Shown here in pieces: positions 55,822-56,231 of a DNA stretch of 64,000 bases. Location: positions 1 to 64,000 of the forward strand of contig CANMVX010000002.1 in the NCBI GenBank assembly GCA_947501115.1, read 5' to 3'. Below the pieces are notes generated by a model. It searched no databases. It saw nothing but the letters and a program-made list of their open reading frames with translations, and was not told the DNA's origin. The stretch is from Haliscomenobacteraceae bacterium. GTDB lineage: Bacteria; Bacteroidota; Bacteroidia; Chitinophagales; Saprospiraceae. How positions within the stretch are numbered: position 1 is the first letter of the stretch; each line of letters starts with the position of its first letter. The position numbers and the translations under genes are program-made.

Positions 55822-55852
55822 TTGTCTTTTTTCAAAGTTAATTTTAATTTTG
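55822..55852 (+). promoter_or_regulatory. Promoter of the SAM riboswitch-metYX transcript
   Basis: TTG at 55822-55824 and TAATTTTG at 55845-55852, separated by 20 bases, an ideal Bacteroidota -33/-7 pair. Predicted start near 55858, about 22 bases before aptamer P1. Confidence 0.7.
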
Positions 55853-55879
55853 TGTTTCAATCACTACTTAACCGATGTG

Positions 55880-55988
55880 ATTTTATACAGAAGAGGGGAG
55901 AGATCGGGCTCACAGAACCTCTGGCAACCATGAATGACTATCATGCAACGGTGCCAAATCCCGCCAATTTATTTTGGAACTATAAAAT
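55880..55988 (+). promoter_or_regulatory. SAM-I riboswitch aptamer (S-box)
   Basis: P1 is ATTTTATA (55880-55887) with TATAAAAT (55981-55988). The core follows the S-box consensus: AGAGGGGAGAGATCGGGCTCA, then GAACCTCTGGCAACC, P3 ATGA/TCAT, the nearly invariant GGTGCCAAATCC, and P4 CCAA/TTGG. The class binds S-adenosylmethionine and lowers expression of methionine genes when SAM is plentiful. It precedes metY-metX. It does not run straight into an obvious terminator; instead a short Cys-rich ORF starts ten bases after P1. Confidence 0.9.
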
Positions 55989-55998
55989 CTGTGTGTCT

Positions 55999-56115
55999 AT
56001 GAACGCCAACTTATTGCATCTTTTATCATCCTCGGGAGTAGTTCTTCTTATCTCTATTTTTATTACAAACAACTGTGCTCAAAACAGTTGTTGTTGCTGT
56101 TGTTGTTTCAACTAA
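55999..56115 (+). CDS. 38-residue leader peptide with six consecutive cysteine codons
   Basis: The ORF starts at ATG 55999, ten bases after the riboswitch P1 helix, and ends TAA at 56115. It has a polar start, a hydrophobic stretch (GVVLLISIFI), NNCAQNS and then six Cys codons (TGT TGT TGC TGT TGT TGT, 56089-56106) followed by Phe-Asn. Such runs are typical of attenuator leader peptides that sense charged tRNA, here Cys-tRNA. Perfect hairpins overlap the run. The alternative is a real small membrane peptide or lipoprotein with a metal- or thiol-binding tail, since the hydrophobic stretch and Cys26 resemble a lipobox. It is 116 bases upstream of metY. Confidence 0.65.
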   Translation: MNANLLHLLSSSGVVLLISIFITNNCAQNSCCCCCCFN

Positions 56116-56175
56116 CAGCCATTCCTATTTCCTTTTTTTATTGTACGGAAATTTCTGGAAGCTGTTGTAGAGCTT
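56068..56175 (+). promoter_or_regulatory. Alternative hairpins over and after the Cys-codon run (attenuator-like)
   Basis: Hairpin A: AACAACTGT (56068-56076) with ACAGTTGTT (56084-56092). Hairpin B: GCTGTTGTTG (56096-56105) with CAAC (56109-56112) and AACAGC (56114-56119), one bulged T. T7 tract at 56133-56139. GCTGTTGT recurs at 56161-56168, so AACAGC can pair with either copy. AAGCT/AGCTT at 56159-56175 is a further small hairpin. The arrangement resembles mutually exclusive attenuator structures; no classic terminator is adjacent. Confidence 0.45.
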
Positions 56176-56231
56176 AATCCCTACGGCATTATGCACTAAT
56201 TATACTCATTTCTCATTTTTAAATTTATATC

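Follow-up and report, generated by a model that had tools for sequence, protein, structure and literature searches.

The attenuators of the trp and his operons combine a run of codons for the amino acid of the pathway with competing RNA pairings, and in classical attenuators an untranslated leader means that the downstream genes are off. One leader may also join a leader ORF with a second signal, as is the case for mgtCBR and mgtA of Salmonella. For mgtCBR, tandem attenuators in the leader have been described (PMC3641672, as far as the available part of that report goes). Cysteine codons are used by the polycysteine leaderless short ORFs (sORFs) of mycobacteria (Canestrari et al. 2020, as cited in the accessible parts of PMC13236596 and PMC9031893), and ribosome-mediated attenuation was proposed for the uORFC-8-2 motif, which carries tandem Cys codons upstream of cysS in Rhodobacterales (PMC8632094, accessible part). 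For Bacteroidota, the available portions of transcriptome studies of Flavobacterium psychrophilum and Bacteroides thetaiotaomicron treat leader-peptide attenuation in general terms (PMC9723704, PMC7366714), and the term 'leader peptide' is absent from the main text, in the version available, of a survey of RNA regulons (PMC3766115).

In this study, a leader upstream of metYX was analysed in the window, i.e. the whole stretch of 64,000 nucleotides from a Haliscomenobacteraceae bacterium. The sequence-only reading of this locus had described a canonical promoter, a complete SAM-I aptamer and, ten bases past its P1 helix, an ORF of 38 codons that carries six consecutive Cys codons towards its end, all preceding metYX, and each of these elements was recovered (all on the plus strand). 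The putative Bacteroidota-type promoter (55823..55852) consists of TTG at 55823-55825 and TAATTTTG at 55845-55852; the latter matches TAnnTTTG, given as the sigma-A consensus at -12 to -5 in the accessible part of PMC9723704. The transcription start predicted from this match lies near 55857, which places the leader AUG about 140 nt downstream. The aptamer (55880..55988) was matched by the covariance model RF00162 with 71.4 bits (gathering threshold 44.4) and is the sole SAM-I riboswitch found in its genome, in which 150 of 316 first-look candidates were scored. Its last eight bases, TATAAAAT (55981-55988), form the P1 3' strand and are all A/U. After a spacing of 10 nt follows the leader ORF (55999..56115; 38 codons plus stop, with ATG at 55999 and TAA at 56113-56115), whose predicted peptide is MNANLLHLLSSSGVVLLISIFITNNCAQNSCCCCCCFN. 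The six Cys codons (56089..56106) are followed by Phe, Asn and the stop, so that, close to the stop of a short ORF, one amino acid of the pathway is encoded several times in a row and in frame, the feature by which a leader attenuator is recognised. The leader frame is open upstream to 55789 and a plain ORF listing therefore gives 108 aa; with no upstream stop to mark the start, we infer position 55999 from its P1-adjacent location and from the conserved architecture. Downstream lie metY, encoding O-acetylhomoserine sulfhydrylase (56232..57530; TIGR01326, 672 bits, cut-off 495), and metX, encoding homoserine O-acetyltransferase (57613..58710; NF001209, 338 bits, cut-off 331).

Upstream of the leader there is a divergent pair on the minus strand (54160-55835), composed of an O-succinylhomoserine-sulfhydrylase-like gene, whose best NCBIfam match is just below the cut-off, and an OsmC-like gene. 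Other runs of Cys codons in the same genome (C93 and C136) were rejected, as they lack a Cys-frame ATG and resemble alternative frames of coding DNA.

With S-box (SAM-I, RF00162) riboswitches the locus shares the sequence and structure of the aptamer and a target in the methionine pathway; unlike the usual SAM-I, its P1-adjacent start codon belongs to a leader peptide rather than to a structural gene, no terminator was called, and the P1 3' strand is nearly devoid of G/C. The SAM-gated form differs from the trp and his attenuators in two respects: it yielded no call of an intrinsic terminator, and a ligand is predicted to control the very translation of its leader. For their part, mgtCBR and mgtA respond to other signals through other structures and have no SAM-I aptamer abutting the leader start codon. 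The mycobacterial sORFs are alike in that Cys runs of upstream ORFs report Cys supply and attenuate downstream genes; according to the accessible parts of PMC13236596 and PMC9031893 they start leaderless at the mRNA 5' end, whereas here some 140 nt, with a SAM-I aptamer among them, separate the AUG from the predicted transcription start, and the phylum is a different one. The uORFC-8-2 motif, as presented in the available text, has two Cys codons, an intrinsic terminator, no riboswitch and cysS as its target (PMC8632094). SAM-I riboswitches and polycysteine attenuators were each already known, and, judged by the available parts of these sources, it is their combination that would be new. No description of an aptamer-gated leader peptide of this kind was recognised in the literature searched, mostly papers accessible without subscription. 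We know of no metabolite riboswitch that acts directly on the translation of an attenuator peptide. If the interpretation developed below is true, this would be the first such case, and sulfur assimilation would be controlled by two inputs in a phylum that is large and devoid of Shine-Dalgarno (SD) sequences.

A search with RF00162 of 100 related genomes (the window's own included) revealed matches in 61 of them, and 69 matches were oriented. In this set, for which Cys codons had played no part in the selection, a run of at least three Cys codons was found behind 19 of 22 aptamers with metY as their first gene (seven of these 19 loci come from the window genus) and behind 4 of the 47 others; for one of these four (L059) the contig ends before the gene, and the gene in G092 (34%) was not counted as metY. 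One of the three metY exceptions (G060) has a 36-codon ORF 11 nt past P1, ending in HYCCQ. Leaders that keep the riboswitch and lack the run, which the sequence-only reading had named as evidence against itself, therefore exist, as a minority: the three among 22, and also L218 and L225-L227. The last three, belonging to one genus of family f28, have a SAM-I aptamer, an ORF soon past P1 and metY, and possibly represent leaders that lost Cys sensing. Beyond close relatives the leader peptides have little in common other than that they begin 2-18 nt past P1 and end in a Cys run; even among the genera of one family they have 27-47 codons and unrelated bodies.

A scan of 84,980 species genomes contributed to the phylum-wide picture. 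It looked for a SAM-I core motif with five Cys codons behind it and left start, stop and frame unspecified. At least 119 stretches fitted this pattern. A SAM covariance model built from 26 aptamers matched 116 of the 119 listed, and in 115 of them the Cys run lies behind the confirmed aptamer; three stretches (L110, L185 and L186) were rejected for having no SAM-I match and one (L165) for having it elsewhere in the stretch. By record title, all but two of these 115 loci are from Bacteroidota (six less familiar genera were looked up and all belong to this phylum), and carriers among the matches listed include Saprospiraceae, Hymenobacter, Pontibacter, Fulvivirga, Mucilaginibacter, Chitinophagales and Flavobacteriales. 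The two remaining titles read 'bacterium' (L078) and 'Rickettsiales' MAG (L192); the latter is probably a misbinned contig, since its downstream protein starts almost like that of the Marinoscillum locus L187.

Although frame was left free in the scan, it proved to be kept. Among the matches listed, which are not phylogenetically independent, an ATG 0-25 nt past P1 that is open to the run was found in the Cys frame of 101 of the 115 loci, compared with 1 and 0 for the shifted frames. In 111 of 115 the Cys frame has a stop no more than 15 nt from the run, compared with 7 and 28 for the other frames. In 13 of the 14 listed loci without such an ATG, an in-frame GTG or TTG lies 3-10 nt past P1. 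The spacing between P1 and the start is mostly 6-15 nt, and both synonymous codons occur in the listed runs (TGT 420, TGC 252). Since TGT and TGC are both used and the peptide bodies of distant members are unrelated, it is the codons that are conserved and not the peptide. A conserved Cys-run ORF near the aptamer and synonymous changes within the run were among the checks suggested by the sequence-only reading, and both were observed; its proposal that the leader combines SAM sensing with Cys-tRNA sensing gains support from this frame fidelity and from the preference for metY (19/22 versus 4/47), and a dual sensor is thus the probable function as judged from sequence comparison.

Several loci carry variations of the element. 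In L125, L187 and L192, a second Cys-rich ORF (e.g. MISYIPEIYGLKNAHCCMCCVCCCML in L125) is located between the leader stop and a sulfite-reductase-like gene, giving tandem Cys leaders behind one SAM-I aptamer. In leaders of the Sphingobacteriaceae type (L079, L087, L212 and others), Met alternates with Cys before the run (CICMCCCC, CMCMCCCCC), and here both Met sensors, the aptamer and the Met codons, may act together.

In the 100 genomes, the last eight bases of the aptamer (the P1 3' strand, typically TATAAAAT) had a G+C content of 2% in 23 leader-type aptamers and 27% in the 46 others; for six of the latter, a long ORF begins only 8-13 nt further on. A weak P1, defined by at most one G/C in the 3' strand and no initial G, was present in 22/23 leader-type aptamers, 5/6 of those abutting a structural gene (27/29 start-abutting aptamers in total) and 6/40 of the rest, in a comparison whose rows are not phylogenetically independent, seven of the 23 leader-type ones being from the window genus. 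In Bacteroidota, which have no SD sequences, initiation depends on mRNA structure for its tuning (PMC6847099, available part), and this makes direct occlusion by P1 plausible; we infer that in start-abutting riboswitches the SAM-stabilised P1 would cover the initiation region itself. The earlier guess that the aptamer gates translation of the leader peptide is strengthened by the narrow spacing and the A/U-rich P1, and such gating appears probable. Counted against it is the plain minimum free energy fold of 55857-56012, from which the aptamer is absent. The element offers a test of how riboswitches of Bacteroidota act on translation.

The RNA around the leader stop may adopt alternative structures. 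A GCTGTT (56096-56101, element 1) is contained in the Cys codons, AACAGC (56114..56119, element 2) overlaps the stop codon, and a second GCTGTT (56161..56166, element 3) follows. As the sequence-only reading had noticed, element 2 can pair with either of its two partners. In the window genus element 3 sits about 40 nt beyond the stop-proximal AACAGC, and its pairing with element 2 is kept in 7/7 members, in two of them by G-U. In predicted folds this pairing extends into a stop-proximal hairpin (56114..56166; AACAGC..TTCC..ATTTCC / GGAAAT..GGAA..GCTGTT) with a T-rich loop. Of the 8 pairs of a second predicted hairpin (56167..56184), five genus members keep all, another keeps 7 and the window keeps 6. 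Perfect hairpins had also been claimed across the codon run; the pairing at its start (CAACTG 56070-56075 / CAGTTG 56085-56090) does exist in the window, and it occurs in 2/7 genus members and was dropped as probably incidental.

Over a wider set (n=117), the stretch from the stop to +90 was more stable than its dinucleotide shuffles (mean z -1.66, half of the values below -1.5), while the same test gave no extra stability from +110 to +160 (mean z +0.21). The ORF stretch from -60 to -10, intended as a control, was also stabler than shuffles (mean z -0.75), and the extra stability is therefore not confined to the region after the stop. In many of 60 predicted folds a hairpin begins at the stop or a few nt from it. 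In 15 leaders of the Sphingobacteriaceae type, each of five stop-proximal hairpin pairs is kept in 13 to 15 sequences, two-sided changes occur in 6/18 predicted pairs, and the consensus energy is low (-6.2 kcal/mol). Support for a general rule of 1:2 and 2:3 pairing was weak over 128 leaders in fixed windows (mean z -0.24 and -0.46, respectively). A pyrimidine tract after the stop showed a mild excess (at least 12 nt in 33%, compared with 14% in shuffled sequences), and nothing was built on it.

The regions upstream of metY were then compared across the phylum. A metY match was found in 174 genomes, and the upstreams of 67 of them (28 of the best-scoring and 39 spread over families) were used; metY-like proteins of 48-52% identity were excluded, as were five of the seven near-identical members of the window genus, L059 and G012 (in which metY is a later gene). 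The survey comprised 96 upstreams, reduced to 94 by two (L277 and L279) in which the script found no start. A Cys/Met-rich leader was called in 42/94 upstreams (0/94 reverse complements and 0.3% of shuffles): 25 behind SAM-I, 5 before SAM-I and 12 without it. SAM-I alone was present in 37/94, with a terminator called in 15 of these 37, and neither leader nor SAM-I in 15/94. In 24 of the 25 leaders behind SAM-I, the ORF starts near P1 or stays open back into the aptamer. Met accounts for 16% of the Cys and Met codons behind SAM-I (n=25) versus 45% in the other leaders (n=17; p=2e-4), in a test restricted to rule-called survey leaders (17%, p=3e-4, without the second member of the window genus). 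The scarcity of Met codons behind the aptamer fits their replacement by the aptamer, and with alternative architectures present at one orthologous gene such a change from codon to aptamer sensing is directly testable.

In the window, no intrinsic terminator was called between the aptamer and metY by a strict rule, which overlooked terminators visible by eye in the SAM-free leaders L200, L202 and L204 (another was seen in L279, outside the count). By the same rule, no terminator follows the leader stop in 24 of the 25 metY leaders behind SAM-I, and the single call has the minimum score. Between P1 and the stop, terminators were called in 6/25 leaders, five inside the ORF (scores 14-21) and a strong one (29) in L236. 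As calls after the leader stop were all but missing, the output step may be either Rho-dependent termination or translational control. Five of the 12 leaders without SAM-I have a terminator by the strict rule, and all five leaders before SAM-I have one after the aptamer, four of them also between leader and aptamer. Four upstreams of family f43 (L242, L245, L255 and L278) have a Met/Cys leader (e.g. MCCMCMCMAQT) with an intrinsic terminator, followed by SAM-I with its own terminator, and can be read from their sequences as two attenuators in series; two terminators in series would give AND logic. A fourth arrangement was observed in L236 (genome G364), where SAM-I and its strong terminator are followed by a Met/Cys leader (..HMMCCCCCCMPFGA), starting 89 nt after P1, and then metY.

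Taken together, we consider it likely that the SAM-Cys leader is an aptamer-gated attenuator that is on at low levels of both SAM and Cys-tRNA. Abundant SAM would bind the aptamer and stabilise P1, which is weak, consists of A/U throughout and has its 3' strand about 11-18 nt before the leader AUG; ribosomes would be kept off the leader start. When SAM is scarce, P1 would open and the leader would be translated. If Cys-tRNA is scarce as well, the ribosome would stall within the Cys run, shortly ahead of the stop; the stop-proximal element would then tend to pair with its partner further downstream, and metYX would be expressed. With Cys-tRNA plentiful, the ribosome would reach the stop and expression would stay off. 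The outcome would be an AND gate, and it is expected because classical attenuators are off as long as their leader goes untranslated; the leaders placed before SAM-I would follow the same logic. Thus, a single RNA upstream of a methionine-synthesis gene appears to sense the supply of methionine as well as that of cysteine, and this arrangement recurs widely in Bacteroidota. No CysK above the curated cut-off was found in the window genome, and its two cystathionine-beta-synthase-like (CBS-like) genes (21447-22457 on the minus strand, and G000:C5:80139-81470) reach 398 and 477 bits, both below the cut-off of 510. Reverse transsulfuration, starting from the homocysteine made by MetY, may thus be a route to Cys in this genome, and if homocysteine feeds Cys, OR logic would seem to suit the cell better than AND logic.

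The sign of the response could also be the opposite: the stop-proximal hairpin would be the off state, opened by a ribosome at the stop, and expression would be on at low SAM and sufficient Cys-tRNA. A hairpin at or near the stop, as in many of the 60 folds, would melt under a terminating ribosome, and the untranslated and the stalled state would both be off, a simple fit to repression by SAM. Nevertheless, the element also precedes genes for PAPS reductase and sulfite-reductase-like proteins, which are needed when Cys is short and suggest that it is on at low Cys, and the SAM-free Cys/Met leaders with terminators resemble classical attenuators; we therefore regard the opposite sign as unlikely. 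It is still less probable that the UGY repeat owes its conservation to a role of the RNA itself (as a pairing partner or a protein site), with Cys sensing incidental and the ORF reporting SAM only, by way of its translation. The run does lie within predicted stems in several folds, its GCTGTT can pair with the AACAGC that follows in the window genus, and the ORF stretch is stabler than shuffles (mean z -0.75); such an element would not, however, account for the frame, start and stop kept around the run (101/115 versus 1 and 0 among the matches listed), for the use of both Cys codons or for SAM-free leaders in which Cys and Met codons are retained but arranged differently (MCCMCMC, QMCMMMCCCM).

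Two further readings concern the ORF itself. Its Cys-rich C-terminus would suit a functional small peptide that binds metals or takes part in redox reactions, and a Pfam search of the leader peptide, which gave no match, speaks neither for nor against this; since little beyond the run is shared and genera of one family have leaders of 27-47 codons with unrelated bodies, there is hardly any likelihood that the peptide rather than its translation is what matters. An ordinary SAM-I riboswitch followed by a fortuitous ORF might be suggested by the 3/22 SAM-I/metY leaders that have no Cys run and by the open upstream frame of the window leader. This is nonetheless very unlikely, with a chance close to negligible, because of the frame, start and stop counts over the 115 listed loci; at least 115 loci share the same architecture and frame fidelity, and the reverse-complement control yielded 0/94.

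With the aptamer-gated attenuator as the preferred reading, we lean, on balance, towards a broader interpretation in which the SAM-I aptamer took over the role of Met codons and its P1 3' strand doubles as the A/U-rich initiation region of the Cys leader, so that a riboswitch gates a ribosome-based attenuator in a modular dual sensor that is widespread in one phylum. As part of this interpretation, the module would have evolved beside two other forms, the Met+Cys leader alone and the Met+Cys leader with a separate SAM-I terminator switch, and would serve a sulfur regulon including metY, metX, metZ-like, PAPS reductase, sulfite-reductase-like and other genes.

The targets do appear, from their sequence clusters, to be mostly a sulfur regulon. 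A candidate gene was available for 111 of the loci listed, in which one locus may count twice and clusters of a single locus are omitted; apart from MetY/MetZ and metX, each cluster was named from one member. The joined MetY/MetZ cluster accounts for 60 of these loci, the sulfite-reductase-like and the RimK-like ATP-grasp clusters for 12 each, PAPS/APS reductase for 10, metX for 7, ferredoxin for 5, an amino-acid permease for 4 and an NhaC-like cluster for 3. The RimK-like ATP-grasp protein, a name taken from one member, recurs behind the SAM-Cys leader in Hymenobacter, Pontibacter and their relatives (L077, L094, L101, L105, L112, L126, L151, L167 and others).
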